From Phycisphaerales bacterium (GTDB lineage: Bacteria; Planctomycetota; Phycisphaerae; Phycisphaerales; UBA1924): 64,000 nucleotides of DNA. The DNA lies in contig WFPK01000053.1 of NCBI GenBank assembly GCA_015487555.1, positions 1 through 64,000 on the forward strand. The letters run 5' to 3'. Positions 27,236 to 54,844 of the stretch are shown here, one piece after another. The notes under the pieces were generated by a model. It made no database searches and was not told the DNA's origin. It saw nothing but the letters and a program-made list of their open reading frames with translations. The first letter of the stretch is position 1. Every line of letters starts with the position of its first letter. The position numbers and the translations under genes were made by a program.

Positions 27236-27964
27236 GTGGAAGCAGTGCGTAAACGAGTGTCATCATGTCTGGGTTGGGTTGATCGCCATGCCATCGGTGT
27301 GGCGATTGGTGGTGCGTTGGCAACGATCATGCTCGGTATGATCGCTGGTATTGGTGTCGCCCGGCTCAACGATGTGCCCGCGTGGTGGATGCAGGCCCAA
27401 GAAGTGATGGGCGATGAGTCGACGATTCGATTGCAGGCCCAGCAACTCGAAAACGCAGTGACCACCCAGCTGACCGCGATCCGAAACCAGGACGATCCTC
27501 GGTGGAGCATCGCGATCACACCCGATCAGGCCAATGCATGGCTCGACGCTCGGCTGGTCGATACCATCGTCACCCACATGGGCGATGAGGCCTGGCCAAG
27601 AACGATCGAACGGGTGCTCCTTGGTGTAGAAGCAGATCAGATGATCCTCGGGGTTCGCGCCAGGCACCAGCAAGGATCGGTTATTCTCTGGGCGCATGTG
27701 ACACTCGAGCTCGATGCGCAAGGTGTGCTTTGGGCAAAGCTCACCAGCACCCACGCCGGGCGGGCGTGGGTGCCGATGGGTGTGGTGAGCGCATTTGACA
27801 ATCAGCAGCGCTCTTGGGCACGATTCAAGATCGGATCGAGCGCTCTTGAGCTCGGCGATGGCCGCACTGCCAGGCTTCTCGCGTTGCGAGTCAATGATGG
27901 GCGTATTGAGCTGGTGCTCGAAACGACCGCTGGTACGATTGATGATCCGGATATGCAGGACTAG
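27236..27964 (+). CDS. Hypothetical membrane-anchored protein
   Basis: GTG start; N-terminal TM (IGGALATIMLGMIAGIGVA); no family recognised. Confidence 0.6.
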   Translation: MEAVRKRVSSCLGWVDRHAIGVAIGGALATIMLGMIAGIGVARLNDVPAWWMQAQEVMGDESTIRLQAQQLENAVTTQLTAIRNQDDPRWSIAITPDQANAWLDARLVDTIVTHMGDEAWPRTIERVLLGVEADQMILGVRARHQQGSVILWAHVTLELDAQGVLWAKLTSTHAGRAWVPMGVVSAFDNQQRSWARFKIGSSALELGDGRTARLLALRVNDGRIELVLETTAGTIDDPDMQD

Positions 27965-28049
27965 GTCGTGTCTGACGGCTCATTTTCTTTCAGTAGAACA
28001 GGCTTTGGGCCTTATTCTACCAAGAGTGTGGGAGCCATCAGACATAACC
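27964..28049. repeat. Imperfect inverted repeat, third paired-arm element
   Basis: GGTCGTGTCTGACGGCTC (27964-27981) vs GAGCCATCAGACATAACC (28032-28049); inner GTAGAA..TTCTAC arms; may act as terminator. Confidence 0.5.
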
Positions 28050-28139
28050 AATCCAACTCTTGTCCAACTCTTGCCCCGCTTTGCGATCTCGCCAGGAGAG
28101 ACAAGGGCTGGCGGACTTGTTTGTCAGAACACCAACCAA

Positions 28140-28757
28140 TCAAGATGCCAGTGGCGAAGTGATCCGCTTTGTGCTCGATTGGCGCACTGTGGCGTCGATA
28201 AGTTTTCGAGCACCCGGCGTCTGAATTGTACGGATCGTGTCGGCGTGCTTGGTGAAGAGTTCACGGAATGCCGGATCGCGGTTCATGGTGTACTCGAGTG
28301 ATTGGATGATCGACGCAGTGTTGGTTTTGAGATTCTTTGAGCGAATCATTGTTGCAATGAGCGCAGCACCAAGCACGATCGGGCCTTGGGCTGGGGCGGG
28401 AATCCAAGGCGAGAGTGCATCGGCAGCTTTGGTCAACGAATCGCTTGGGTTCTGCGCTTCGGCGATCACCAGATCCGCCTGAGCAATCGCGGCATTGAGT
28501 GCACTGAGCTGCGCTTTGGCATTGGCGATCGCAGCGTCGAGATACGGCGCATCGGCGGAAGTATCCTCGATTGTTTCACGCTTGTTTTCGAGTGCGATCA
28601 GCTGATTTTGCACATCGGTTTCGATCACGGCTGCCTTTGCTCGCCAGGCGCTTGTTTGGGCCAATGCGCCCTCGAGATTGGCGCACCCGCCGATCATCGT
28701 GAGTGCCAAGATGGCGATGATGATGCTTGCTGTATTGATGATGATTTGTTTCGACAT
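28140..28757 (-). CDS. Small lipoprotein with a long helical region and one C-proximal hydrophobic segment
   Basis: ATG at 28757: MSKQIIINTASIIIAILALTMIGGCAN lipobox; Ala/Asp-rich helix; GPIVLGAALIATMI segment; RBS GGGGAGA 7 nt upstream. Confidence 0.75.
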   Translation of the reverse strand: MSKQIIINTASIIIAILALTMIGGCANLEGALAQTSAWRAKAAVIETDVQNQLIALENKRETIEDTSADAPYLDAAIANAKAQLSALNAAIAQADLVIAEAQNPSDSLTKAADALSPWIPAPAQGPIVLGAALIATMIRSKNLKTNTASIIQSLEYTMNRDPAFRELFTKHADTIRTIQTPGARKLIDATVRQSSTKRITSPLAS

Positions 28758-28815
28758 GTCTGTTCTCCCCGCGTGCACAACAACCCCCCGGCTGCACGCG
28801 AAAGCCGGGGAGATG
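28757..28815 (-). promoter_or_regulatory. Structured 5' leader with mutually exclusive stems overlapping the RBS
   Basis: RNA-sense: TCTCCCCGGCTttcgcgtgcAGCCGGGGggttgttgTGCACGCGGGGAGAacagacATG. Confidence 0.6.
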
Positions 28816-29039
28816 GGGTGTTGATGATGCGGGGAATGATGAAGCCGAGCACTCGGAACATCGGGCATGGTGATGGTACAGGGAAAAGACGGATTGACAA
28901 GCATGATTCGCTGGAGCGCACGGACTTTGCGCACGAGGGTTGGTATTGGGCAAGCTGATATCGGGCAAAGAAGAGAATGAGCGGGGTTTGGTTGTTGAGT
29001 GTGGATCGCACGGAGAAAAGTGGGCACAGGGGGACTTTC

Positions 29040-29081
29040 TTCAGCTTTTGATCTTCGGCTTTTGATCTTCGGCTTTTGATC
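29040..29081. repeat. 14-bp tandem repeat, about 3 copies
   Basis: CTTCAGCTTTTGAT CTTCGGCTTTTGAT CTTCGGCTTTTGAT. Confidence 0.85.
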
Positions 29082-29322
29082 GAAACACATCTCCATCGAG
29101 TCTTTGTAAAATGGGCCCGGGATGAGTCAGGGTGAGTCGTGGTGAGTCAGGGTAAAAAAGTGTCCAAATTGGGCTTTGCTTTTCCTCAAGCCTGTTCAAA
29201 CGGCGAGTTTTTTCTTTTGAAATCTCGGCTTTGTGGTATACTCGACGCAGGGCGAGGCGATGAATTCGTCGCCAGCGCCTTTGGAGTGCGCTCGTGTGAT
29301 GTGCTTTGAGGAGGAAAACTTG

Positions 29323-30345
29323 ATGCGTCAATCTACTCTGCAATCTACTCTGTATGCCCGTTTGGGTGCAGTGCTTTCGGTCGCAGTTGCCCTGTGTAGC
29401 CCGGCTCACGCCGACGAAATCACGGTGCAGAACGATTCGCTTGTCGATGGAGGCACCGTGGCGATCTGCCCGTGCTTTACCGCTGGCGAAGAGGCAGCGG
29501 TCTGGCTGACGAGCCCGTGCGATGGCGACATCGTGGCGATCCAGATCTTCTGGAAATCACTCCTGGGCGGGGCACAAATCTCACTCGAAGACTCCATTAT
29601 CGTCTACCAGGGCGGGAACTTTCCCAGTCCCGGGCCAGTCAAAGATTCGTTCGATGCGCCCGCACTGATCGACGGCGGGCTCAACGAATTTCGATACCAG
29701 GACGAGAATCAGACAATCCCCATCTCGATCCCCGTCACCGCTGGCGAAGAGTTTGTCGTCTCGCTCAAGTTCTTCAACTCCAACAATACCGATCAGCTTT
29801 TGCCCAGTGTCGTTTCCGATGACTCGGGGTGCCAGAGTGGCAAAAACACGGTGAAGGTCAATGGGTCGGTGTGGATGGATGCGTGCGCACTGGGCGTCTC
29901 GGGTGATTGGGTGATCCGCGCAGTGATCGAATGTTCGGGCGAACCCACCGGGGCTGCATGTCTGCCCGATGGCACCTGTGCAGAAGGGCTCACCGAAGCC
30001 CAGACCATCGCACTCGGTGGTTTCTGGAATGGTGCAGGGACCGCCTGTGGCGATGTGTTGTGCCTTGGGGCATGTTATATCCCCGCCACCGAGCAATGCG
30101 TGCAGTTCGATCGCGCGACTTGCGAGATCGTCGGCGGAGTCTGGAGCGGACCGGGAACGACCGAGTGTGAAACACAATGCCAGGCAGATATCAATGGCGA
30201 TGGGACACTCAACTTCTTTGATGTCTCGGCGTTCCTCCAGGCATTTGGTGTCAAAGACCCCATGGCGGACTTCAATAACGACGGCAGTTTCAACTTCTTC
30301 GATGTCTCCGAGTTCCTCCAAGCGTTCAGTCTGGGATGCCCATGA
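29323..30345 (+). CDS. Secreted protein with C-terminal GC-type dockerin-like module
   Basis: Signal peptide at ATG 29323 with RBS GAGGAG; C-term CQADINGDGTLNFFDVSAFLQAFGVKDPMADFNNDGSFNFFDVSEFLQAFSLGCP. Confidence 0.8.
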   Translation: MRQSTLQSTLYARLGAVLSVAVALCSPAHADEITVQNDSLVDGGTVAICPCFTAGEEAAVWLTSPCDGDIVAIQIFWKSLLGGAQISLEDSIIVYQGGNFPSPGPVKDSFDAPALIDGGLNEFRYQDENQTIPISIPVTAGEEFVVSLKFFNSNNTDQLLPSVVSDDSGCQSGKNTVKVNGSVWMDACALGVSGDWVIRAVIECSGEPTGAACLPDGTCAEGLTEAQTIALGGFWNGAGTACGDVLCLGACYIPATEQCVQFDRATCEIVGGVWSGPGTTECETQCQADINGDGTLNFFDVSAFLQAFGVKDPMADFNNDGSFNFFDVSEFLQAFSLGCP

Positions 30346-30560: not shown

Positions 30561-31922
30561 ATGAATCGTTTACTTTGTGCGTGCCTTATCGCCGCCACCG
30601 GATCAGTTGCCAGCGCGCAGCTCACCACCCAAGAGATCGCCAACGGCCTTGACCGCCCGGTGTTCGTCACCCATGCTGGTGATGGTTCCGGGCGTTTGTT
30701 TATCATCGAGCAAGAAGGTGCCATCCGCATCATTGATGCCGATGGCAATCTGCTGCCAACCCCGTTCCTCGATATCGACCCCCTCGTGGTCGGCGGAACC
30801 AGCGGGGGCAACGAGCAAGGGATGCTCGGGCTTGCATTCCACCCTGATTACGAAACCAACGGCAAGTTCTATGTGAACTACATCGGCAGCGGCGGCGATA
30901 CCCGGGTTGCTGAGTATCAGGTTTCGGCGGGCGATCCGAACATCGCCGATCCGGGCACCGCGCGGATCATTCTGTTTCATAGCCAACCATTTTCAAACCA
31001 CAATGGTGGATGGCTTGGATTTGGACCCGACGGATACCTCTATGTTGCTTCGGGCGATGGCGGTTCGGCCAATGACCCGGGCAACCGGGCTGCGAGACTT
31101 ACCCAGCCTTTGGGCAAGATTCACCGCATCGACATCGACGGCGGCGATGATTTCCCCGGCGATAACCTCCAGAACTACGAAGTACCCGCGGACAATCCGT
31201 TTGTCGGCGTACCCGGCGCAGTTGAATCCATCTGGCACTACGGCTTGCGCAACCCCTGGCGGACAAGCTTTGACCGCGAAACTGGCGATATGTGGATCGG
31301 TGATGTCGGGCAGAACGCCTTTGAAGAGGTCAACCATAATATCGGCAATGTTGGTGGATTGAACTATGGATGGCGCTGCCGAGAAGCATTCCAGGATACC
31401 GGGCTCTCGTGCGGAGCTACCGACTGGACCGATCCAGTCCATGCCTACCCGCTCTCGGGGGGCAACTGCTCGGTCATCGGCGGGTATGTCTATCGTGGGT
31501 GCGAACTCGGCGAAGCATATCAGGGATTGTATTTCTTCGGCGACTACTGCGGCGGGTCGATCTGGACCCTTGATCCAACAGACTACTCGCGCACCACCGA
31601 GTTCAACTTCGGGTTTGGGCTCTCGTCATGGGGCGAAGACGAAGCCGGCGAGCTCTACATCAGCGATGTGTTCTCCGGGCAGGTCTTCAAGCTTGTCAAC
31701 CCGACCGCACCCGACGACGACGACAACGGGATTCCCGACGCCTGTGAAACTTCATGTGCGCCCGATCTCACCGGCGATGGTGAGTTGAACTTCTTTGATA
31801 TCTCGGCATTCCTCACCGCCTTTGGCAACGAGGACCCCGTGGCGGATTTTACCAACGACGGGCTGTTCAACTTCTTTGACATCTCGGCGTTCCTCAAGGC
31901 ATTCAGCGCTGGGTGCTCATGA
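30561..31922 (+). CDS. PQQ-dependent sugar dehydrogenase-like protein with GC-type dockerin-like module
   Basis: IANGLDRPVFVTHAGDGSGRLFIIEQEGAIRII, GMLGLAFHPDYETNGKFYVNY, NHNGGWLGFGPDGYLYVASGDGG; C-term module ending AGCS. Confidence 0.88.
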   Translation: MNRLLCACLIAATGSVASAQLTTQEIANGLDRPVFVTHAGDGSGRLFIIEQEGAIRIIDADGNLLPTPFLDIDPLVVGGTSGGNEQGMLGLAFHPDYETNGKFYVNYIGSGGDTRVAEYQVSAGDPNIADPGTARIILFHSQPFSNHNGGWLGFGPDGYLYVASGDGGSANDPGNRAARLTQPLGKIHRIDIDGGDDFPGDNLQNYEVPADNPFVGVPGAVESIWHYGLRNPWRTSFDRETGDMWIGDVGQNAFEEVNHNIGNVGGLNYGWRCREAFQDTGLSCGATDWTDPVHAYPLSGGNCSVIGGYVYRGCELGEAYQGLYFFGDYCGGSIWTLDPTDYSRTTEFNFGFGLSSWGEDEAGELYISDVFSGQVFKLVNPTAPDDDDNGIPDACETSCAPDLTGDGELNFFDISAFLTAFGNEDPVADFTNDGLFNFFDISAFLKAFSAGCS

Positions 31923-32050: not shown

Positions 32051-33127
32051 ATGAACACATCAACACACGCATGTTTATGGACAGCTGCCCTCTTGGGTTC
32101 AAACTTGAGTTCAAACGCATGGGCGCAGAGCTTCGAGAGCACGATCGACTCAAAGATAAGCACCTCGGCCTTCGATTCGGTCATGGTCTTTGATTCTTCG
32201 GGCACCATCATCGGCGATTATGATCCAGAAACCAATCCGGGAGGAACGCAGACTCGTCCGGGGCTCTTTGGTGGATCAGGCAATCATCCGATCGACACCT
32301 CGGTCTCGTTGGCTGCCGATACGATACTCGATACCAACCCGGCGGGATCATTCGTGTTCATGCCCGATTTCGACGCAGGGCTTGTCGAGATCGACGGGCT
32401 TGTAACCGATCTGGTCAACGGACAACCAGGAGGAACCAACCTCGTCGCGACCATGCTCTATAGCACCTTTCACACCATCAATCCTTCCTTTATTTATCCC
32501 GGAGGCACGCCGATTGATGTCCCGATCGGACAGATCACAGGAATCACCGCTGCAACATTGACCCAGACCGACCTGGGCGCGGGCACACTGATGCCAACGG
32601 ATGATCCTGATATCTTCACCATTGCGATACTCATCCCGGCCCAGCTCGACATGGTGGTGGATACTGCCTTACCCGGAGAAGACCCAATCCCCACGCCGAT
32701 CGACACCATCCCGATGGTGCTTCCTGTTGCAGGGCAGGTCGAAATCCTCAGCGATGGATCGGTGCTCATCACCCTTGATATCACGCCCGATCCGATCTCG
32801 ATGGTGATCCCGCTCGACGGCGTTGTTGTGCCCGATGTGCCCTTCGAGCTTCCGACCTTCGGTGCCGAGACTGCTTCGGTGATTTATTCTTCAGTGCCCG
32901 AGTCGGTCAGTGTGGATGCATCGCTGGGGATGACGATCGTGGCGAGTGGATTGGCCTCGTGCGCAGCCGATGTCAACGGCGATGGAATGCTCAACTTCTT
33001 TGATGTCAGTGCATTTCTGAGCGCGTTTAGTGCGATGGATCCAGCAGCCGACTTCACCGGCGATGGCGAGTTCAACTTCTTCGATGTCTCGGATTTCCTC
33101 GCTGCATTCGCTGCTGGGTGTCCGTAA
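32051..33127 (+). CDS. Hypothetical secreted protein with GC-type dockerin-like module
   Basis: Signal-like N-terminus MNTSTHACLWTAALLGSNLSSNAWAQ; C-term CAADVNGDGMLNFFDVSAFL..FAAGCP. Confidence 0.78.
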   Translation: MNTSTHACLWTAALLGSNLSSNAWAQSFESTIDSKISTSAFDSVMVFDSSGTIIGDYDPETNPGGTQTRPGLFGGSGNHPIDTSVSLAADTILDTNPAGSFVFMPDFDAGLVEIDGLVTDLVNGQPGGTNLVATMLYSTFHTINPSFIYPGGTPIDVPIGQITGITAATLTQTDLGAGTLMPTDDPDIFTIAILIPAQLDMVVDTALPGEDPIPTPIDTIPMVLPVAGQVEILSDGSVLITLDITPDPISMVIPLDGVVVPDVPFELPTFGAETASVIYSSVPESVSVDASLGMTIVASGLASCAADVNGDGMLNFFDVSAFLSAFSAMDPAADFTGDGEFNFFDVSDFLAAFAAGCP

Positions 33128-33339: not shown

Positions 33340-36300
33340 ATGAAGAAATCAGTTTTATCGGCGTGCGCGATCGTTGCCTTGGCAGGAACTTCAGCAGGAG
33401 CACAGGTCATCGGCTGGGCATCGGCCATCGATGGTGATTGGAACAACTCGGCCAACTGGATTGGCGCCAATATTCCCAACGCTGTTGGTGAAGACGCGGT
33501 GCTCGGGCTTATTGGCCCGTACATCGTGGAGACTTTTGCAAACTTCTCCTACGGCTCGTTGTCGATCACAAACCCGGATGCCACGCTTCATATCGGGTCA
33601 AACCGAACCATGACACTCAACAGCGGAAGTTTGTTCAATGACGGCACTGTTATTGTGAACCCGACAGGAACGGGTTTCAATGCACACCTGAGCTTTGCTT
33701 CCGATGCCACCATCACCGGAACCGGGTCTATCTTGCTCAACGCACAAATCGAACCCAATGATGCACAAATCCTGGGCAACGCATTCACCATCACCCATCT
33801 CGATGGACACACGATCCATGGATCAGGAAATATCACGGGTGCGATGACCAACTCGGGGACAATCGTCGCCGACATCCCTGGGGGTGTGGAGCTGCGACTG
33901 TCTGGAACGATGACACAAACCGCCACCGGGATTGCGGGCGCTGATGGGGGCACCCTGCTGCTGGGTAACGGATCGGTCATCACCGGCGGGCAACTTACCA
34001 CACTCAACGGCGGCAAAGTCGAAGTTCAGAACACCGCCACCATCGGCGATCTCATCAACTCTGGCGATCTCGATATCCCCGGACAGGGATGGTATCTGCT
34101 GCTCAATGACAGTATTGTGAACGACGGCACCATCAACATCAACTCGAATAGCAATGGATTCAACGCTCATCTCCGGTTCGATGTCGCTGCAACCATTGCT
34201 GGCACAGGAAAGATCACGATGGTGAGCAATGGGGATTTGGGTGATGCTCAAATCCTGACCAATGGCGCATTCGATGGTACCATCGGGGCCAATCAGACCG
34301 TTGAAGGGAGCGGGCTCATCACCGGAGCTAACAGCGGCACGATCGTCAACCTGGGCACGATCAACGGGAATGACCCGGCAGTCGGTTTAGGGTTGGCAGG
34401 GAATCACAGCGGCGACGGGACATACCAATCTGATGATGGGTTGATCGAGCTTCGCAATGGGCTGATCCTTGATGGAGGCACCTTCGATTCAACTGGGGCG
34501 GGGATCATCGACATGACCACCGGCGGCGTCGTCACCCTCTCCAACATCACCAACCTGGGGCAGATGGGCATTCGTGGACAAGGTGGTTCTATCAGTCTGC
34601 TCGGACCAATGACCAACAACGGTACCCTGACCATCAACTCCAACAACAACGGCTTCAATGCCCACCTTCGCTTCGATGCCAGTGCTGAGATCAACGGCAA
34701 TGGGCTAATCCAGATGGTGGCGGGTACTTCAGACCTTGGCGATGCACAACTCTTTACCAATGGCGTGTTCAACGGAATAATCGGCGCAAACCAAACTGTC
34801 GCTGGAAGTGGAATCATTGATGGGCGCAGCGGAGGCACCATCGTCAATAACGGAATAATCAATGGCAATCATGCTGCGGTTGATCCTGACCCGGCGGTGG
34901 CTCTGGAACTTTGGGGTAACCACGATGGCAATGGCGGCGGGATATATCGCTCGGATGACGGCATCCTTGGGCTTCGCAGCGGGCTCGTCCTTGATGGCGG
35001 CACCTTCGATTCAACCGGGGCGGGGATCATCGACATGACCACCGGCGGCGTCGTCACCCTCTCCAACATCACCAACCTGGGGCAGATGGGCATTCGTGGA
35101 CAAGGTGGTTCTATCAGTCTGGTCGGACCAATGACCAACAACGGTACCCTGACCATCAACTCCAACAACAACGGCTTCAATGCCCACCTTCGCTTCGATG
35201 CCAACGCCACGATTGATGGTAACGGAACGATCCGGATGCAGACTGTTGGAAGTTCCGGCGATGCCCAGATCTACACCAATGGCCTATTCACCGCCACCAT
35301 CGGCACCAACCAGATGGTTGCTGGCAGTGGGATTATTGATGGACGCTTGGACGGAACCATCGTCAATCACGGCATGATCAGCGCGGATGATCCGACGGCT
35401 GCGCTCGAACTCCGGGGCAATCACTTCGGTGACTCAATTGGCATCTACAACGCCAATGACGGCGTGCTCGCGCTGACCGGTGGACTTGTGCTTGACCACG
35501 GCGTTTTCAGCTCCTCGGGCACCGGGATCATTGACATGACCACCGGCGGCACCGCCACACTCTCCCGTATCACCAATACCGGGACGATGGGGATCCGCGG
35601 GCAGGGTGGGACTATTGAGTTGGTTGGGCCATTCACCAATAACGGAACGATCTTGATCAACTCCAATGACAATATCTTCAACGCCCGTATCCGGTTCCTC
35701 GATGCCACGATCATCGACGGCACGGGCACCATCGACATGTTTGTTGCCGGGACTGATTTCGGCGATGCACAGATCCTCAACGACCAAGGATTCATCGGCA
35801 CCATCGGCGAGGGACAAACCATCACCGGCAGCGGACGGCTTCAAGGCGAGATGAACATGGACGGCACGCTCGATCCGGGCTCAACACACCGCCGATTCGA
35901 TATCGACACCCTCCACCTCTCGGCAACCTCAGCGATGGTCGCTGATCTTGGCGGGTTGCTCGGAGGCGAGTTTGATCGGTTGCTCCTTGGAGGATCCGAC
36001 GCCATCAACCTCGACGGCACCCTGACGGTCAATCTCGATGCAGGGTACACCCCTGTGTTTGGCGATTCGTGGGATATCATCGACGGCGGCACCATCGTCG
36101 GATCGTTCGCAACCACGCATGTACCCAATGCACCAATCGGGCAGGTGTACCGTGTGATCTACGAACCAAGCCGAGTCTTTGTGGTGCTCACCTGTGATGC
36201 GGATTACACCGGCGATGGGGTGCTCAACTTCTTCGATGTTTCCAAGTTTCTCACACTCTTTAGCGCCCAGGACCCAGAAGCCGACATCAACGGCGACGGG

Positions 36301-36360
36301 AGCTTTAACTTCTTCGATATCTCCGCATTCCTCCAGATATTCTCAGTCATCTGCAAGTAG
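33340..36360 (+). CDS. Large secreted repeat protein (beta-helix/adhesin-like) with dockerin-like C-term module
   Basis: Signal peptide; repeated TNNGTLTINSNNNGFNAHLRFDA / GSGIIDGR..GTIVN units; C-term CDADYTGDGVLNFFDVSKFL..FSVICK. Confidence 0.82.
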   Translation: MKKSVLSACAIVALAGTSAGAQVIGWASAIDGDWNNSANWIGANIPNAVGEDAVLGLIGPYIVETFANFSYGSLSITNPDATLHIGSNRTMTLNSGSLFNDGTVIVNPTGTGFNAHLSFASDATITGTGSILLNAQIEPNDAQILGNAFTITHLDGHTIHGSGNITGAMTNSGTIVADIPGGVELRLSGTMTQTATGIAGADGGTLLLGNGSVITGGQLTTLNGGKVEVQNTATIGDLINSGDLDIPGQGWYLLLNDSIVNDGTININSNSNGFNAHLRFDVAATIAGTGKITMVSNGDLGDAQILTNGAFDGTIGANQTVEGSGLITGANSGTIVNLGTINGNDPAVGLGLAGNHSGDGTYQSDDGLIELRNGLILDGGTFDSTGAGIIDMTTGGVVTLSNITNLGQMGIRGQGGSISLLGPMTNNGTLTINSNNNGFNAHLRFDASAEINGNGLIQMVAGTSDLGDAQLFTNGVFNGIIGANQTVAGSGIIDGRSGGTIVNNGIINGNHAAVDPDPAVALELWGNHDGNGGGIYRSDDGILGLRSGLVLDGGTFDSTGAGIIDMTTGGVVTLSNITNLGQMGIRGQGGSISLVGPMTNNGTLTINSNNNGFNAHLRFDANATIDGNGTIRMQTVGSSGDAQIYTNGLFTATIGTNQMVAGSGIIDGRLDGTIVNHGMISADDPTAALELRGNHFGDSIGIYNANDGVLALTGGLVLDHGVFSSSGTGIIDMTTGGTATLSRITNTGTMGIRGQGGTIELVGPFTNNGTILINSNDNIFNARIRFLDATIIDGTGTIDMFVAGTDFGDAQILNDQGFIGTIGEGQTITGSGRLQGEMNMDGTLDPGSTHRRFDIDTLHLSATSAMVADLGGLLGGEFDRLLLGGSDAINLDGTLTVNLDAGYTPVFGDSWDIIDGGTIVGSFATTHVPNAPIGQVYRVIYEPSRVFVVLTCDADYTGDGVLNFFDVSKFLTLFSAQDPEADINGDGSFNFFDISAFLQIFSVICK
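34477..34680 (+). repeat. 204-bp near-identical internal repeat, copy 1
   Basis: By-eye alignment to 34999-35202 shows about 2 substitutions (ACT/ACC; CTGCTC/CTGGTC). Confidence 0.9.
34999..35202 (+). repeat. 204-bp near-identical internal repeat, copy 2
   Basis: See copy 1. Confidence 0.9.
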
Positions 36361-36651: not shown

Positions 36652-38550
36652 GTGATGCACAGCGGCTTTTCTATCAGCACCCTGACGAGCGCGGTGCGCG
36701 CCCGCAAGGGCGCCTTTGTTGTCGGGTTTGGATTGAGTGTCGGATTGATCGCGATGGGCTTTGTAGGCGAGCCTGAGGAGCAGGTCCAGATACAGGTGCC
36801 AACTACACTCAACGATTTTCGCATGCCCGGGACCCAGCCCAACTCGCTGACACATGAAATCGTTGGTTCGGATACCTGTGCCAGCTGCCACGGATTCTAC
36901 GACGAAGCGCACGATATCTTCGGAACCTGGTCGGCTTCGATGATGGGGCAGTCGATGCGTGACCCATTGTTCCTCGCGGCTTTGACCATCGCCAATCAAG
37001 ACGCAGCTTTCGCTGGCGATTTGTGCCTGCGTTGCCATACACCAGGCGGATGGCTCGAAGGGCGATCGACCCCGACTGATGGGTCTGCCTTGCTCGATAT
37101 TGATTTACAGGGTGTTTCGTGCAGTGTCTGTCATCGCATGGCCGATCCGGAGTATCAACCCGGAGTCTCGCCCGCGGTTGATCTCGATATCCTCAATACA
37201 CTCGGGGCGGATGCACCGACTCCAGATCAGTCACACTCGGGCGCCTTTGTCATCGACCCGCTCGATCGTCGGCGAGGTCCATACGACGAAGGCCCTGACT
37301 TCTTCTATCACGAGTGGGAACAATCACCATTTCACCAGAGCTCGAGCTTGTGCAAAACTTGCCATGATGTCTCCAACCCGGTTTTCACCGCCCAGCCCGA
37401 CGGCACCTATGTGCTCAACGAGCTCGACGCCCAGCATCCGACCAACAATGTCTATGACACCTTCCCTGTCGAGCGCACCTATTCGGAATGGTTGATGAGC
37501 GATTTCGCCAAAGGCCCGGTCGCGATCGGCGATCGGTACGAAACCGCCCTCCCCGCGGTATCGAGCTGTCAGGATTGCCACATGCCAGAGACCGATCTCC
37601 AGGCGTGCCGATTCGATGAGAACCGACCAAACTACTCCACTCACTCATTCAGTGGTGCCAACAACTGGGTGCTTAATGCGATCCGCAACCTCAATCCCAA
37701 CGACTTTGTCACCGGTCTCCAGCCCGAGCTCGTCGCCCAGTCCATCGAACGGGCAGAAGAAATGCTCCGCGATGCTTCGGACATGGAGCTCTCGATGGTC
37801 GGGAACAAGCTCAATGTCCGCATCATCAATCAAACCGGGCACAAGCTCCCCACCGGATATCCCGAAGGTCGGCGGATGTGGATCAATGTCCAGTTCTTCG
37901 ATAATACAAACACACTCATCGCCGAGCACGGCGCCTATGACCAGGAAACCGCCCTGCTCACGGTCGATGACACCAAGGTCTACGAAACCAAGCTCGGCCC
38001 TGACGAAGCCGTCAGCGCACTCACCGGCGTGCCCGCAGGACCAAACTTCCACTTTGTGCTCAGCAATGTTCGCTACAAGGACAACCGCATCCCCCCACGC
38101 GGATTCACCAATGCCAACTTCCAATCCATCCAGGCCGAGCCGGTCGCCTATACCTACGACGATGGCGTTTACTGGGATGACACCCAATACGCAGTCCCCA
38201 AAGGAGCTGCCAGAGCCGATGTCCGGGTCTACTACCAGACCACCAGCAAAGAATACATCGAGTTCCTTCGCGACAAGAACATCACCGACTCACGCGGGCA
38301 AGAGGTCTATGACCAATGGGTCATCACCGGAAAAAGCCCGATCGTCGAGATGGATGTGGGCACACTCACCTTCCCGACATCATGCCCGCCAGATATCACC
38401 GGCGATGGATTGCTCAACTTCTTCGATATCTCAGCATTCCTGACAGCCTTTGGCAACCAGGACCCGATCGCTGATTTTACGAATGATGGACTGTTCAACT
38501 TCTTCGATATCTCGGCGTTCCTGCTGGCCTTTGGAGATGGGTGTCCGTAG
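36652..38550 (+). CDS. Multiheme c-type cytochrome with GC-type dockerin-like module
   Basis: Five CxxCH motifs: CASCH, CLRCH, CSVCH, CKTCH, CQDCH; C-term CPPDITGDGLLNFFDISAFL..FGDGCP; ATG at 36655 or GTG at 36652. Confidence 0.85.
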   Translation: MMHSGFSISTLTSAVRARKGAFVVGFGLSVGLIAMGFVGEPEEQVQIQVPTTLNDFRMPGTQPNSLTHEIVGSDTCASCHGFYDEAHDIFGTWSASMMGQSMRDPLFLAALTIANQDAAFAGDLCLRCHTPGGWLEGRSTPTDGSALLDIDLQGVSCSVCHRMADPEYQPGVSPAVDLDILNTLGADAPTPDQSHSGAFVIDPLDRRRGPYDEGPDFFYHEWEQSPFHQSSSLCKTCHDVSNPVFTAQPDGTYVLNELDAQHPTNNVYDTFPVERTYSEWLMSDFAKGPVAIGDRYETALPAVSSCQDCHMPETDLQACRFDENRPNYSTHSFSGANNWVLNAIRNLNPNDFVTGLQPELVAQSIERAEEMLRDASDMELSMVGNKLNVRIINQTGHKLPTGYPEGRRMWINVQFFDNTNTLIAEHGAYDQETALLTVDDTKVYETKLGPDEAVSALTGVPAGPNFHFVLSNVRYKDNRIPPRGFTNANFQSIQAEPVAYTYDDGVYWDDTQYAVPKGAARADVRVYYQTTSKEYIEFLRDKNITDSRGQEVYDQWVITGKSPIVEMDVGTLTFPTSCPPDITGDGLLNFFDISAFLTAFGNQDPIADFTNDGLFNFFDISAFLLAFGDGCP

Positions 38551-39157: not shown

Positions 39158-39550
39158 CTCACCTCAGCCATTTCGTGTTTGACCCAACATACAAACACCT
39201 AACTACAATGGGAGTGGGTTCGCATACACCATATCCAAAACGGGAAACAAATGTGCAACCCAAGGGCACCAAATGATCCGTTTATAACCGGCCGTTCTGA
39301 TATTTTATAAGCAGTTTTCTGTTTCTACCCCGTCTTTTTTCTGTTATACTGTATTTATCGGGCTCACCGATTTTGTGAGGGATTTCTATGAGGGGCGATC
39401 TGCAATCCGAGTAAGAGATGCCAGGCGTTTGGTCAAACGCTTCTGGGCTGTGATGTTGGGTTGTGGTGTGTTGTTGAGTTGGTCGTCCTTGAGATATACA
39501 CAAAGAAAGCCTGCAGTATGGCTTTCACCAACTACAAGGGAGAAAGACAA

Positions 39551-41695
39551 ATGAAACGGCCCAATGTCTTTGCCTCGATTGCGGGTATCACCGCATTGAG
39601 TGCACTCATCGTAACGGGTGCTTCGGCAGCCAATCAAGACCCATCGTTGCGCGAAGGGATGCGCCCGGTCGTCACCGAAGGAGCGCCGGTCTCGCCTGTC
39701 TCGGGCGAGCACGCCGGCGAGCTCTTCCGGGCCAAAGTCTCGCAAGATCGAAAAGTTACACTTCCGCATCCACCAATCGACCAGATTCCATGGATGCCCA
39801 TGCCCGATCCGATCGCACCGGGGATCACTCCTGCCGGTGGTGAATCGGGCATGACCTTCCACGATGCGCTCACAGGTGAAACCCGCGAGCTGCCTCTGAA
39901 TCCATCGGGCACCAATGCCATCGGCGGCCAAAGCATCGAAGGTGATTATCCAGGGTTCGGAAACCTGATTGACAACTCCGATGAGATCGGACGAGGATTT
40001 GGGAGCATGACCCTTGCCGGTGGGCTCAGCTCTTGGCCTCGCTCGGGCAATGTGAAACTCGTCATGCGATTCACCGATGTCAATGGCATCCAACGCTGGT
40101 TCGTTTGCTCAGGATCAATGCAAGATTCGGGCGTTGTGCTCACTGCTGCCCATTGTGTCTATGCCCGAACACCAAATGGAATCGTCATCAATGACTGGGC
40201 TGACATCGTGTATGTCTACCCGGCATGGGACGGCGTCTCGAACAACGGCCAGTTTGATGCCCCCGATAGCAACGAAGTGATTGAAAACTTTGGATACGCC
40301 TTTGGTTCTTCATTCCTCGCAGGAACAAACTACATCAACAACGGCGACTGGGACGCCGACGCAGGGCTTATCCGCATCACCCGAGGCTCAAGCCGAAGTG
40401 TCGGGATGCTCACCGGATGGTATGGATGGGCATGGGGACAGAGCTGCGCCACCATCCAATCCCGCACCTACCACAACTTCTCATACCCTACAGAAAACTG
40501 CCCAACACCCGGGCTCCACACCGGAACCGATATGTACTACTGGAACGGTACGATCGACTCGTGCCCCAACAACCAGATGGAACTGACCACCGGGGGCAAC
40601 TGCCTCGATACCGTCTGGGGTGGAATGTCAGGCTCGGGCATGTACTACATCGTCGACGACAACCGATATGTCCACGCGGTCTGCTCGACCTCGAATCGAA
40701 ACGACTGGGGACGCTATTGCAAACTCTGGGAAACCTTCGTCAACGATATGCAAACCTTTGAAAACAACACCCGAGGCAACACCTTTGATCTCGAATCGCT
40801 CCGGTTCCGTGCGGGCGGATCGACCAGCGTGTTCCAAGGACAAGCAATGGACGCAGATGCATCCGTCTTGGTTGTCAACGCAACCAACAACAATCCAGCT
40901 GCCGATTCGTATACCCTCCGGGTCTACCTCTCGACCAACAACAACATTTCCTCAGCCGATACACTCTTGGCGACCTGGGTCTACAACACCAACTTCGCCG
41001 CGATGCAAATACGAAATTTCATCGTCCCCGCGCCGGTGATCCCACTCGACACACCTCCGGGCGACTACTGGATCGGAGCGATTCTCGATTCTGGAACCGA
41101 CAGCATTTCGTCGAACAATGATACCGATACCTGGGATGCCCAGCAGATCACCGTCAACCTGGCGAGGCCTGATCTTGATGCCACACTCTGCGATGCAGTA
41201 TCAGGAACTTACTACCAAGGCGAAACCGTCTCGGTGACACACCGGACATTCAACATCGGCGAGCGCATCTCGGGCGATGTCAGCTTGGAGTTCCGCGCCT
41301 CGACCAACCAGATCATCTCGACCTTTGACACCTTCATGGAGGACCGCTCCTACAACCCACTCCCCGTTGGCAATAGCATCTGGGTCGTCTCCACTGTCCA
41401 GATTCCTGACGATCTCCCTCCGGGTGATTACTACATCGGGACAATCGTCGATGAATCGCTCGGGCTTGATCCAACCTTCAGCAACAACTGGGTCTCGGAT
41501 ACCGATACCATCACCGTGCTCGCGCCGTGCCGGCCTGATCTGAACGGCGATGGTCGGCTCAACTTCTTCGATGTCTCGGCCTTCCTCACCGCGTTCAACG
41601 CAATGGATCCCGTTGCCGATTTCAACGACGATGGACAGTTCAACTTCTTCGATGTCTCGGCCTTCCTCGCAGCATTCAGCGCTGGTTGCCCATAA
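39551..41695 (+). CDS. Secreted trypsin-like serine protease with CARDB-like repeats and GC-type dockerin-like module
   Basis: GVVLTAAHCVYA (His), WDADAGLIRI (Asp), WGGMSGSGMYYI (Ser); C-term CRPDLNGDGRLNFFDVSAFL..FSAGCP. Confidence 0.85.
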   Translation: MKRPNVFASIAGITALSALIVTGASAANQDPSLREGMRPVVTEGAPVSPVSGEHAGELFRAKVSQDRKVTLPHPPIDQIPWMPMPDPIAPGITPAGGESGMTFHDALTGETRELPLNPSGTNAIGGQSIEGDYPGFGNLIDNSDEIGRGFGSMTLAGGLSSWPRSGNVKLVMRFTDVNGIQRWFVCSGSMQDSGVVLTAAHCVYARTPNGIVINDWADIVYVYPAWDGVSNNGQFDAPDSNEVIENFGYAFGSSFLAGTNYINNGDWDADAGLIRITRGSSRSVGMLTGWYGWAWGQSCATIQSRTYHNFSYPTENCPTPGLHTGTDMYYWNGTIDSCPNNQMELTTGGNCLDTVWGGMSGSGMYYIVDDNRYVHAVCSTSNRNDWGRYCKLWETFVNDMQTFENNTRGNTFDLESLRFRAGGSTSVFQGQAMDADASVLVVNATNNNPAADSYTLRVYLSTNNNISSADTLLATWVYNTNFAAMQIRNFIVPAPVIPLDTPPGDYWIGAILDSGTDSISSNNDTDTWDAQQITVNLARPDLDATLCDAVSGTYYQGETVSVTHRTFNIGERISGDVSLEFRASTNQIISTFDTFMEDRSYNPLPVGNSIWVVSTVQIPDDLPPGDYYIGTIVDESLGLDPTFSNNWVSDTDTITVLAPCRPDLNGDGRLNFFDVSAFLTAFNAMDPVADFNDDGQFNFFDVSAFLAAFSAGCP

Positions 41696-49602: not shown

Positions 49603-50703
49603 ATGATGACAACCGATTCCGAGCAATCAACATCGCCCGAATCTGGCTCGGTTTCGATCCGTGCCGACGAACTCGCCGGGCTCGTCGAGGGTCGGCTGGT
49701 TGGAAACCCCGAGCTTATCCTCACCGAACTGGCCTCGATCGAAGACGGCAGCCCGGGCTCGCTTACCTTCATCCGCTCGAAAAACTTCGCCAACCTCTGG
49801 AGCGATTCCTCCTGCTCGGCAGCACTCGTCACCCAGGGGGTCGATGTTCCCGGTCATGATCCCGAGACACGGGCACTCATCTTTGTCCCCGATGCGGATA
49901 TCGCGGTGATCAAAATCCTCGAAGCGATCAAACCCAAACCCTCAGCTCCAGGTGTTGGGATTCATCCCAGCGCCACCGTCCACCCCGATGCCCAGATTCA
50001 CCCCGAAGCTTCGATTGGTCCGGGATGTGTCGTCTGCCAAGGAGCAGCCATCGCTTCGGGTGTTGTTCTGGTTGCCAATGCCTACATTGGGCAAGATGCC
50101 CAAATCGGACAAGACACCATCTTGCACCCCGGAGTGGTTGTCGGCGATCGGTGCGTCGTCGGCGATCGTGGACTCATCTTTGCCAACTGTGTCATCGGTG
50201 CCGACGGGTTTGGATTTCTCACCGCGACTAAGGATCGCCCCGTGACCAAGGTGCCTCAGATCGGTACGGTTGAAATCGGCGATGATGTTGAGATCGGTGC
50301 CTGCTCGACGATTGACCGTGCCAAGTTCGGCGTGACCAGAGTCGGGCATCGCACCAAAGTTGATAACCAGGTTCATATCGCCCATAACTGCATTGTTGGC
50401 AACGATGTCCTGCTATGCGGGCGAACAACCCTCGGGGGCTCATCGACCATCGGGGACCGTACCATGATCGGGGGGGCGGTGGTGCTCAACGATCAGGCAA
50501 CCGTTGGAGAAGATGTCAAAATCGCAGGCGGCGCAATCGTGCTCGACGAAATTCCCCGCGGCGAGACGGTTCTGGGGGTTCCTGCGATGCCTGCGCGCAC
50601 CGCCCTGGCCAATGCAGCAGCGAGCCGAAACCTCGCCAAGTTCTGCCGACGGGTCGAGAAAACACTCAAAAAACTCGACCCAGACTACAACAACTCATCC
50701 TGA
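49603..50703 (+). CDS. lpxD: UDP-3-O-acylglucosamine N-acyltransferase
   Basis: Left-handed beta-helix hexapeptides; GADGFGFLTATKDRPVTKVPQIGTVEIGDDVEIGACSTIDRAKFGVTRVGHRTKVDNQVHIAHNC. Confidence 0.94.
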   Translation: MMTTDSEQSTSPESGSVSIRADELAGLVEGRLVGNPELILTELASIEDGSPGSLTFIRSKNFANLWSDSSCSAALVTQGVDVPGHDPETRALIFVPDADIAVIKILEAIKPKPSAPGVGIHPSATVHPDAQIHPEASIGPGCVVCQGAAIASGVVLVANAYIGQDAQIGQDTILHPGVVVGDRCVVGDRGLIFANCVIGADGFGFLTATKDRPVTKVPQIGTVEIGDDVEIGACSTIDRAKFGVTRVGHRTKVDNQVHIAHNCIVGNDVLLCGRTTLGGSSTIGDRTMIGGAVVLNDQATVGEDVKIAGGAIVLDEIPRGETVLGVPAMPARTALANAAASRNLAKFCRRVEKTLKKLDPDYNNSS

Positions 50704-50713
50704 TCCCAAGCCC

Positions 50714-51577
50714 ATGATGAACCGGACCACACTCAATGACGCTGTCCGTATCGCGGGCACCGGGCTCTTCACTGCCGAGCCTGTCGCATTGGCGATCTGC
50801 CCATCGCACGATCAATCGGGGATCACCTTCCGCCGAGCCGATACCAGGGTCCCTGTTCATATCGCCAACCTCTCCGCGATGCCCGTGCATGAAGCCTTCG
50901 CCCAGATGCCCCCTCGGTGTACGAGTATCTGCTCCCAATCCACCAACATCGCCACCATCGAGCACCTGCTCAGCGCCCTGGTTGGGATGGGGATCACCGA
51001 CGCCTCGATCGAGATCAGGTCGCCACATCCACATTGCGAGATTCCGATCATGGACGGGTCAGCCCGCGATTTTGTCAACGCCTTGAGCGAAGTCGGCATC
51101 GAAACACTCGAATCTCAGGTCGAGCCCATCACCATCGACAAGCCGATCATCATCGAAGAGCACGGCGCGTCGATCACCATCGAGCCGGCCCAATCGCCTA
51201 GCTATACCTACACCATCGACTACCCGACGGATCCCATCGCATCGGCAACAGTCACCTGGCAAGGTGATTCGACCGACTATGCCAGTCGCATCGCCCTGGC
51301 CCGTACCTTCTGTCTCGAGCGTGAAGCCAACGCGATGCAAAGCGCCGGGCTCTTCAAACACCTCCAAATCAACGATTTACTGGTCATCGGCGACATCGGA
51401 CCGATCGAGAACACCTATCGCCACGAGCACGAATGTGCCCTGCACAAACTCCTCGATCTCATCGGCGACCTTGCGCTCGTTGGTCGCCCCTTGTGCGCCA
51501 AAGTCAGTGCGATCAAATCCGGGCACGCCATGACTCACCGGGCAGCCAGAGCGATCATCGGGCAGCAGCGCTACTGA
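50714..51577 (+). CDS. lpxC: UDP-3-O-acyl-N-acetylglucosamine deacetylase
   Basis: TIEHLLSALVGMGI, IPIMDGSARDFVNAL, HECALHKLLDLIGDLALVGRPL, GHAMTHRAARAI. Confidence 0.92.
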   Translation: MMNRTTLNDAVRIAGTGLFTAEPVALAICPSHDQSGITFRRADTRVPVHIANLSAMPVHEAFAQMPPRCTSICSQSTNIATIEHLLSALVGMGITDASIEIRSPHPHCEIPIMDGSARDFVNALSEVGIETLESQVEPITIDKPIIIEEHGASITIEPAQSPSYTYTIDYPTDPIASATVTWQGDSTDYASRIALARTFCLEREANAMQSAGLFKHLQINDLLVIGDIGPIENTYRHEHECALHKLLDLIGDLALVGRPLCAKVSAIKSGHAMTHRAARAIIGQQRY

Positions 51578-51631: not shown

Positions 51632-53509
51632 TTACGGGCACCCATCAGCAAATGCAATCAGGAATGCGGAAACATCAAAGAAGTTAAACTCACCATTCTC
51701 ATCGAAGTCTGCTGCGGGGTCTGCCTTGCTAAACAAGGTCAAGAACGCAGAAACATCGAAGAAGTCGAGCTCACCATCATCAGTGAGGTCCGCAGCACAC
51801 GATGGAGCGCACGAGGCGATCATCGAACAGAACGGCGTCACCGCAGCCACTTGCGAATAGGCAAACCCATCTGGAGCACTCGGATCGGCAACGATCCATT
51901 GCATATAAAAAGTCTGTCCATCCATCGCCGGGTTGTCGATCGGGTAGATCAGCGTCCCGAACCCATCGCCAGCGCCCATCCCATTGAGCGCGATCGGGCC
52001 GACGAGTTCATCCTGAAGCACAAGCCCATCAACCGGCGGGGTCGACGAAATCGCCACCCATGCTTGGGCTCCGCCAAGGGCAAAGTCGAGCCCGATCTTG
52101 AATCCGAGGTTCCCGATATTGGGAGGCACCACCGCGATCATCTTGGGCGTATACCCGCCGGTGCCCATGACCCCTGATTCGGTAATCATCGGGTTGGGTG
52201 TGTCGAGCTCGGTATGAAGCGTCGGGCGATCGAACGGGAAGGTCTCGTTGGCGACCCGTGGATCCGTCAGGGCGGTGTTGATGAAGTTTTTGACGATCGC
52301 TTCGTTTTCAGGCGAGAAGACGATCGGTGAGTTGAGCCTGAAATCCCGATTCTCAGGCAACGGCCCAAGCCCATTGCGATGGGCATAAAAATCAAAAACA
52401 TCATCCATCGTCTCGATCATGCCCGTGTGCATAAACCGATCACGCAATCCAACATTGCGAAGCGTGCTCATCCGAAAGGCACCCCGCTCAAAGCTCACCC
52501 CGGTGACACCTGCGCGGCCGATATCTTCTTCGATCGGGCGCACGCCCTCGACGATGAAGTTGTTGGTGGTGAACAGTGGGGCAGTATGACAGTTGTTGCA
52601 GGTCGAACCGCGATAGAGCGTCCACCCGAGCTGCTGTTCGGGGGTCATCGCCGAGTCATCACCCGCATTCCACAAATCCCAAGGCGACTCGCCAGGCACC
52701 AGCGTCCGCTCATAGGTCGCAATCGCAAACCCGATCCGCGCAGCGGTCACCTCAGGATCGCCAAAGGCTGACTCAAAGAGCGCCGGGTAAGTCTCATTGG
52801 CGGTAATCGCATCGAGCATATCCTGAGGGATATTCGACGCCAGAGCCAAGGGTTTGGCGTTGGCGATCTTGGTTGTCACCGATGCCCAGTCTCGATCCTG
52901 GTGGGCCATCTCGATGTCATTGAGGATCGGAACGAGCGATTGAATCTCGAGTGCAGCACTTGAAATCGCGAGGGTTTCGCCGGTAACGGGATCAATATAA
53001 TCGCCCTCAGCCCGTCCATCCCAGAACAGGTTGCCGACATACATCGACACATGGTTGTTCATCGAACGCCGCCCGGTGACTTGAGGCTCAAGATCATACA
53101 AAGGCGAACGGATATAGAGCCCGTCAACATCCGTAGCGATCAGCCCGGGCGATCCATCGAGATCGTCAGGTGTTCCAAAGATGCCATCGAAAGCCGGGTT
53201 GAGCCCGACGCGTGGATCGACGCCGCCTTCGGATGGGATATGGCAGGTGCCACACGAGATGGTGTTGTCGCTCGAGAGCTGTTCATCCCAGAACAGAATC
53301 TTGCCCAGCACCCGTTTTTCTTCGGTCACCGGATTCTCAGGAGGCGCAAAGGGTTCCCACAATCCGATCACCGCTCCATCCGCCCGGTCGAGTTCGCGCT
53401 CGGACTGGGCGGATGCGTTCGTGGTGCCAAAGAACCCAACAAAAACAACAGAAGCCGTGGGCACAAGTGCGCCCAAGGCTTTGATGGCCGAGTGAAAACG
53501 GTATGGCAT
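51632..53509 (-). CDS. Di-heme cytochrome c peroxidase/MauG-like protein with GC-type dockerin-like module
   Basis: Signal peptide; VLGKILFWDEQLSSDNTISCGTCHIPSEGG, CNNCHTAPLFTTNNF, RNVGLRDRFMHTGM; C-term CAADLTDDGELDFFDVSAFL..FADGCP. Confidence 0.88.
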   Translation of the reverse strand: MPYRFHSAIKALGALVPTASVVFVGFFGTTNASAQSERELDRADGAVIGLWEPFAPPENPVTEEKRVLGKILFWDEQLSSDNTISCGTCHIPSEGGVDPRVGLNPAFDGIFGTPDDLDGSPGLIATDVDGLYIRSPLYDLEPQVTGRRSMNNHVSMYVGNLFWDGRAEGDYIDPVTGETLAISSAALEIQSLVPILNDIEMAHQDRDWASVTTKIANAKPLALASNIPQDMLDAITANETYPALFESAFGDPEVTAARIGFAIATYERTLVPGESPWDLWNAGDDSAMTPEQQLGWTLYRGSTCNNCHTAPLFTTNNFIVEGVRPIEEDIGRAGVTGVSFERGAFRMSTLRNVGLRDRFMHTGMIETMDDVFDFYAHRNGLGPLPENRDFRLNSPIVFSPENEAIVKNFINTALTDPRVANETFPFDRPTLHTELDTPNPMITESGVMGTGGYTPKMIAVVPPNIGNLGFKIGLDFALGGAQAWVAISSTPPVDGLVLQDELVGPIALNGMGAGDGFGTLIYPIDNPAMDGQTFYMQWIVADPSAPDGFAYSQVAAVTPFCSMIASCAPSCAADLTDDGELDFFDVSAFLTLFSKADPAADFDENGEFNFFDVSAFLIAFADGCP

Positions 53510-53638
53510 GACGGAATCCTTAGCGTTGAAAAACTGATCAGTCTCCGGGGAAAGTATACACCAAATCTCATTATTCACAACAGAATAAAGGACCAAAAAG
53601 CCCGCTATAAGCGATGTCTACGAGGAATTTTATAGGGT

Positions 53639-54844
53639 TTACCGACACCCGGCATTGAACGAGCTGAGAAAGGCTGAGACATCGAAGAAGTTGTACAGCC
53701 CGTCGTTTGTAAAATCCGCCACCGGGTCGTTGGCGTCAAAGGCGCTCAAGAATGTCGAGATATCGAAGAAGTTGAGCAATCCATCGCCGGTGAGATCGGC
53801 TGGGCACAAGGGAAAGCATCCGGGTTCGGGTTGGTTTACATCCCATCCGTTGCCGCCAAAGGCGACAATGGCATCAAGCGAGCGATCATTGAATGCGCCG
53901 TATCCGATGAATCCTTCCGCTTCAACTTGTGCAAGAAAGTCACTTGCCCGCGCATTGTTCTCGGAAGCGGATTGGTTATTCCGGTTGATGATGTAGTCCG
54001 TGACCAGCACCGCTTTGCTGTTGAGTTTGTATGTGCGGAGCAGATCGAGTGCGTAGCTGGTCTGGGCTGGAAGCTGCGGAGCAAGCTCGTCATACCACAC
54101 ATCCTCTCGCCCGACCCCATTGATCGAGGCGAAGTAGTCAGCTGTTTCTGAATCAAGCTCGCCGTTGTCGTTGAGGATGATGTCCACCCCACCCTGAGGG
54201 AAAACCAGAAAATCCACATCGCTGCGTACGACACGCGCGTGGCGGGCGATTTCCTCGACAAAGTCGATCATCTCGGTGCGGGCCTGGGCGCGCGGGCGTT
54301 CGACGATGCCATCGGGCGATGACCAGAAGTAAAAAGCATCAATGATATCGAGATACACCCCATCAAACCCCGCATCAATAATCGCATCATACGGCGAGGT
54401 GTAAGGCCCCGCATCCGTTCCAACGATCAAATGCTGCCATTGAGGCATCCAGTAGCGAACCTTGAAGTTGCCTTCCCAGTCCGGATTGGTCGGGCCCAGC
54501 CACGCGGGGGCGACGCCCGGGATCGGATTGTTGTCATCATCAATCCATCCGGGATCAAAGTAATCTCGATATGACTCAGCTTCGCCAATCGACAGGTACG
54601 CGAGCACTTTCTTCGGGCACGGGCCATCAGACCGGATCTGCTCAATTTCCTGGGCGGTGAAGGCGGTTGCCTGCGATCCGTCAGCAGTAGGCTCAAGGAT
54701 CAACCAATCAACATCGGCATCAATGAGCTGTTGCACCGTCATGGCGTCGGGTTGAAGCACATAGAGCAAGTCTTGACGCTGACCCAGAGCGTATGGAGTG
54801 GTGAGCATCAAGAGAACGCTGCCGAATAAAAACGATCTGTGCAT
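53639..54844 (-). CDS. GH114-like (endo-alpha-1,4-polygalactosaminidase/TM1410-like) protein with GC-type dockerin-like module
   Basis: VLAYLSIGEAESYRDYFDPGW, GFDGVYLDIIDAFYFW; C-term CPADLTGDGLLNFFDISTFL..FNAGCR. Confidence 0.8.
   Translation of the reverse strand: MHRSFLFGSVLLMLTTPYALGQRQDLLYVLQPDAMTVQQLIDADVDWLILEPTADGSQATAFTAQEIEQIRSDGPCPKKVLAYLSIGEAESYRDYFDPGWIDDDNNPIPGVAPAWLGPTNPDWEGNFKVRYWMPQWQHLIVGTDAGPYTSPYDAIIDAGFDGVYLDIIDAFYFWSSPDGIVERPRAQARTEMIDFVEEIARHARVVRSDVDFLVFPQGGVDIILNDNGELDSETADYFASINGVGREDVWYDELAPQLPAQTSYALDLLRTYKLNSKAVLVTDYIINRNNQSASENNARASDFLAQVEAEGFIGYGAFNDRSLDAIVAFGGNGWDVNQPEPGCFPLCPADLTGDGLLNFFDISTFLSAFDANDPVADFTNDGLYNFFDVSAFLSSFNAGCR

Follow-up and report, generated by a model that had tools for sequence, protein, structure and literature searches.

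Pseudoknots in mRNA leaders with autoregulatory function control translation in the cases of S15 (rpsO), S4 (alpha operon) and T4 gene 32. The preQ1 riboswitch is a pseudoknot leader acting on translation (PMC11625349). For tisB of E. coli, a standby pseudoknot in the 5’-UTR is needed for controlled translation, as shown by compensatory mutations (PMC7708055). The leader described here precedes a lipoprotein gene in a stretch of 64,000 nt (the window) from a Phycisphaerales bacterium, and is a further case within this broad kind of leader pseudoknots. With a probability of about 0.7, it is considered an undescribed cis-acting H-type pseudoknot element which controls translation initiation and in which stem 2 reaches as far as the Shine-Dalgarno sequence (SD).

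Layout of the leader

The original prediction had proposed three mutually exclusive 8-bp stems, formed by the segments A, B and C, directly over the ribosome binding site (RBS). The quoted RNA-sense sequence was found on the minus strand (28757-28815) ahead of the lipoprotein ATG (28757-28755), and three perfect 8-bp complements exist: A:B (CCCCGGCT/AGCCGGGG), B:C (CGCGTGCA/TGCACGCG) and A:C (TCTCCCCG/CGGGGAGA). Exclusivity was not upheld. No position is used by both the A:B stem (S1) and the leading 7 bp of B:C (S2), so both can form together, and the orthologues keep both as a pseudoknot. A conserved RNA structure does lie on the RBS, whereas the three-stem competition is not supported. The elements of the leader are, from 5’ to 3’:

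28873-28900, minus strand: candidate promoter TTGTCA-16 nt-TACCAT (consensus scan, 9 of 12 matches; TACCAT is similarly placed in leaders L011 and L014)
28829-28834, minus strand: C-run CCCCGC, a possible anti-SD (helix P0); it recurs upstream of S1 in leaders of the genus and complements GCGGGG of the RBS
28803-28810, minus strand: 5’ strand of S1, CCCCGGCU, a pseudoknot stem which covaries in relatives
28801-28802, minus strand: loop L1 (UU), between the 5’ strands of S1 and S2
28794-28800, minus strand: 5’ strand of S2, CGCGUGC, inside the S1 loop; CGCGTG is invariant in the subgroup, GCGCTC or ACGCTC is found in the sister subgroup
28786-28793, minus strand: 3’ strand of S1, AGCCGGGG
28777-28785, minus strand: loop L3, GGUUGUUGU, 9 nt, crossing S1
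28770-28776, minus strand: 3’ strand of S2, GCACGCG, flush with the SD (own versus swapped strands, z -7.4)
28764-28770, minus strand: SD, GGGGAGA, 6 nt before the ATG
28140-28757, minus strand: lipoprotein gene, 205 aa, without Pfam family

The geometry is that of an H-type pseudoknot: S1 (8 bp) and S2 (7 bp) do not overlap and the loops L1, L2 and L3 comprise 2, 0 and 9 nt. As in H-type pseudoknots generally, L1 would cross the deep groove of S2. The 3’ strand of S2 (28770-28776) ends on the SD (28764-28770), which places the second stem immediately 5’ of it. None of 300 dinucleotide shuffles of this leader reached the pseudoknot combination (p = 0.003). By contrast, a 91-nt stretch has an ordinary nested folding energy given its base composition (z -0.52), which was equalled by 57 of 200 shuffles.

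The original prediction depended on transcription from upstream of segment A, and this is borne out as far as promoter motifs can tell. The sequence TTGTCA-16-TACCAT (28900-28873) is a likely promoter upstream of segment A, and TACAAT is present in eight relatives, compared to 0.27 expected from shuffles; seven carry it at -92 to -103, the eighth at -78. Taken together, these matches place the transcription start probably upstream of the pseudoknot.

Conservation of the pseudoknot

From the relatives, 65 leaders were extracted, giving 56 non-redundant orthologue leaders from one bacterial family. Visual inspection and a search for H-type pseudoknots based on stacking energies showed that the leaders of the genus carry a variable hairpin, the loop of which pairs with the nucleotides directly preceding the SD. 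The S2 helix differs between subgroups (CGCGTG/CACGCG in one, GCGCTC or ACGCTC/GAGCGT in the other, GCGTTCG/CGAACGC in L026), and the stems are wholly different in other genera (L028; L032/L070; L087/L088; L095/L100/L101). The fold of the leader is kept in relatives while the stem sequences are almost entirely replaced.

Compared to dinucleotide shuffles, the pseudoknot reached p ≤ 0.05 in 32 and p ≤ 0.01 in 21 of the 56 non-redundant leaders (Fisher 7e-28, shared ancestry being ignored in the leader statistics). Within the genus, 16 of 17 non-redundant leaders had p ≤ 0.013, the exception being L019 (0.106). For control leaders of other genes from the same sequences (100 shuffles each), p ≤ 0.05 was obtained in 3 and p ≤ 0.01 in 1 of 42. 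The remaining 24 of the 56 leaders miss p ≤ 0.05, and in some members of the family the element is accordingly absent, altered or, because the start codon was wrongly assigned, misplaced. Ambiguous start-codon calls were noticed in genus g24 (L095-L101, L103), of which one genome (G155) has two paralogues, L095 and L103, with differing leaders.

Strands were swapped between species using fixed windows, i.e., segments were not chosen by structure. Own strands paired better than swapped strands for S1 (z -6.3) and S2 (z -7.4), compared to -0.2 and -0.6 for control window pairs; swaps between close relatives work against this result, not for it. Seven leaders of one subgroup were aligned without regard to structure, and the structure of L018 was then counted on this alignment: 98.1% of cells were paired and six S1 pairs had both partners changed, a result matched by 0 of 500 shuffles. 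When the same structure was slid along the alignment, pairing dropped to 15-68%. Three S1 pairs with both sides changed were also found among L014-L016. Variation of S2 inside the best-covarying subgroup, that of the seven aligned leaders, is one-sided only, and the support for S2 comes from the comparisons between subgroups and genera, i.e., the strand swaps. Covariation is found for both stems, by two-sided changes and swaps for S1 and by swaps for S2. In genus g15 (alignment of four leaders) S1 covariation was weak, and the two leaders of genus g18 gave no useful alignment; in both cases the stems are too dissimilar. These data show the two crossing stems, their position and their compensatory conservation across the family, and the RNA structure itself very probably exists.

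ALTERNATIVES

Covariation across orthologues, which had been suggested as a check, supported S1 and S2, and A:C failed it: between the S1 5’ strand and the SD, the longest complementary run was 2-6 nt in 17 orthologues, and the A:C pairing was found only in this genome. A:B had also been said to leave the RBS free. When the C-run of this genome is included, the nested fold has about -37 kcal/mol, retains S1 and pairs the SD, with a mean unpaired value of 0.011 for the SD at 37°C. Since the SD is paired in this model even with A:B formed, A:B alone does not free it. Predicted SD accessibility did not clearly separate the states (mean 0.43 vs 0.40). The thermometer, also part of the original prediction, found no support in a temperature scan from 5 to 75°C, in which the nested ensemble, a model that cannot represent the pseudoknot, did not open.

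CCCCGC may pair with the SD. Two leaders, L019 and L026, are without CCCCGC and have CUCUCCCA and UCUCCUGC, respectively, each complementary over 8 nt to the SD of the same leader (p = 0.004 and 0.016). For P0, own versus swapped strands gave p = 0.0004 with structure-anchored segments, and z -1.3 (p 0.09) with fixed windows; individually, P0 was significant in only 2 of 41 leaders. In a crude energy comparison, the pseudoknot was about as stable as the best nested fold, the knot being better in 5 of 32 cases.

The lipoprotein gene and its neighbourhood

The encoded protein has a signal peptide and a lipobox (MIGGC), and Cys25 is invariant in 52 orthologues. No family was found in Pfam, and a PHROGs search gave weak matches only (best E 0.038). 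The AlphaFold2 model is all-helical (mean pLDDT 85.9) and had no match in the PDB at E ≤ 0.001. Of the 21 genomes of the genus, that of the window among them, 19 have an orthologue, as do 67 of 163 genomes of the family. Among 400 genomes of the order, only four belonging to other families gave matches, which were weak; the gene is almost limited to one bacterial family. The lipoprotein frame runs open for more than 300 nt upstream across the leader (28758-29096, minus strand), which creates a spurious ORF of 318 aa. Automatic annotation could hide the leader in this way.

In most relatives the gene order is lpxD-lpxC-lipoprotein on a single strand. At locus L010, Pfam confirmed LpxC and a hexapeptide-repeat (LpxD-type) gene; in the window, it confirmed LpxC as well as LpxD. 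Here, lpxD-lpxC (49603-51577, plus strand) are displaced and inverted relative to the lipoprotein gene, which they adjoin in most relatives, and lie about 21 kb away on the opposite strand. Despite this separation, the lipoprotein gene retains its pseudoknot. Downstream of the lipoprotein gene, members of the genus have a convergent gene with no known function, and one of rpsI type (rpsI was named by eye). In the window, the conserved convergent gene is located at 27236-27964 (plus strand) between the rpsI-type and lipoprotein genes; it is without Pfam family and has relatives in 17 other loci of the compared set.

Eight predicted proteins of the window share a C-terminal two-copy repeat, xDxxGDGxLNFFDxSxFLxxF, which resembles a dockerin or EF-hand-like tag. 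Six of the eight genes are situated between the lipoprotein gene and lpxD-lpxC, i.e., in the stretch parting genes which are adjacent in relatives:

29233-30345, 30561-31922, 32051-33127, 33340-36360, 36652-38550 and 39461-41695, plus strand: repeat-tagged protein genes with the shared C-terminal repeat
51632-53596 and 53639-54844, minus strand: repeat-tagged protein genes with the shared C-terminal repeat

Proposed mechanism and rival explanations

We propose that the lipoprotein mRNA leader would fold in the cell into the H-type pseudoknot with S2 ending on the SD. The 30S subunit would have to dock beside this stable knot or unfold it, so that pseudoknot formation would set the amount of protein. 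On the strength of position and conservation, the pseudoknot probably controls translation initiation; an action on translation, not on RNA stability, is presumed, as is some factor or condition modulating the knot. Relievable repression is the most likely sign, perhaps helped by pairing of the C-run with the SD; this is a judgement, not a result. A more speculative and rather doubtful extension is a switch depending on shape only and free of sequence constraints, in which pseudoknot and upstream anti-SD would be rivals for the RBS of this envelope lipoprotein with its link to the lipid A genes lpxD-lpxC. A cellular signal would set the balance, for example the outer membrane state, ribosomal protein S1, some other RNA-binding protein or a helicase, and only the architecture would be selected.

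A bistable switch without this extension is a possible, tentative reading. CCCCGC:GCGGGG with S1 formed would be the off state, formation of S2 would release the SD and give the on state, and the same GCG would be contested in this genome. The nested fold that pairs the SD and retains S1, the replacement SD complements of L019 and L026 and the structure-anchored swap of P0 are consistent with it. However, the fixed-window swap was not significant, P0 is individually significant in only two leaders, and competition is not forced in several genera, where the C-run/SD helix is clear of S2. Somewhat less likely, the pseudoknot might aid translation or mRNA stability, either by 5’-terminal protection from decay or, by analogy with tisB, by recruiting ribosomal protein S1 and the 30S subunit. 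The tisB pseudoknot is required for binding of 30S and S1 (PMC7708055), in several relatives the conserved TACAAT would make the knot lie close to the start of the transcript, and structure without sequence conservation suits a purely mechanical role. The knot of tisB, however, lies near the 5’ end and far from the sequestered RBS, whereas the knot here abuts the SD, and a stable fold in this position is expected to hinder 30S binding.

The three-way mutually exclusive switch or thermometer, as first proposed, is now very improbable. All three 8-bp pairings are present in this sequence, but A:C is not conserved in the 17 orthologues, A:B and B:C are retained jointly as a pseudoknot, and the nested model did not open between 5 and 75°C. 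Equally improbable is that the structure arose by chance, merely reflects inverted repeats rich in GC, or is what remains of an upstream gene's terminator. The ordinary nested folding energy and the position of lpxC upstream on the same strand in most relatives would fit; compensatory changes and swap tests contradict chance or mere inverted repeats, no clear U-tract is seen at the site, and the pseudoknot is present here without lpxC upstream. A terminator scan listed CTTTCGCGTGCAGCCGGGGG-GTTGTTGTGC (28804-28785), which sits inside the pseudoknot just upstream of the lipoprotein RBS, as terminator-like; it found 2 sites compared to 1.3 by chance. A terminator or lpxC-linked element is considered unlikely, since a convincing U-tract is missing and the knot is not tied to lpxC in the window; a chance origin was ruled out by the shuffles, the leaders of other genes and the swap tests. 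A dispersed repeat was also rejected: the genome has no convincing second copy, only weak matches, and the pattern TCGCGTG-N14-30-CACGCG occurs once elsewhere in the genome, compared to five matches of the reversed control pattern. Control of translation initiation by the pseudoknot is kept as the preferred reading.

Comparison with known systems

No Rfam family reached the gathering score at seven orthologue loci, and no preQ1 match was obtained over 28000-29300 even at E ≤ 10; by the tests made here, the leader is not a preQ1 riboswitch. A small-ligand riboswitch pocket was rejected in general, because S2, L1 and L3 vary from one subgroup or genus to the next and conserved unpaired nucleotides are missing. 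A literature search on the Phycisphaer- group found no pseudoknot paper. The leader has a structure supported by covariation and is not represented in Rfam 15, and its gene, a family-specific lipoprotein beside lipid A genes, is worth testing.

Like RNA thermometers (ROSE, fourU), the structure lies over the SD; unlike these, it has no predicted melting transition in the nested model and no Rfam match, and S2 is a GC-rich crossing helix. The pseudoknot of tisB is near the 5’ end and about 100 nt from the sequestered RBS, whereas the knot of this leader abuts the SD. In rpsO, the alpha operon and T4 gene 32 the leader responds to its own product; here, the product is a predicted membrane-anchored lipoprotein and not a known RNA-binding protein. 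The preQ1-I and SAM-II riboswitches are similar in being compact H-type pseudoknots in 5’ leaders, in which stem 2 contacts or adjoins the SD. They differ in that stems and loops of the present leader change sequence between genera, with neither a conserved pocket nor an Rfam match, and in that the lipoprotein gene is without known relation to queuosine or methionine. Complete turnover of both stems with the fold kept is unusual beside riboswitches with conserved pockets, and constitutes a natural experiment on what an SD-adjacent pseudoknot does.
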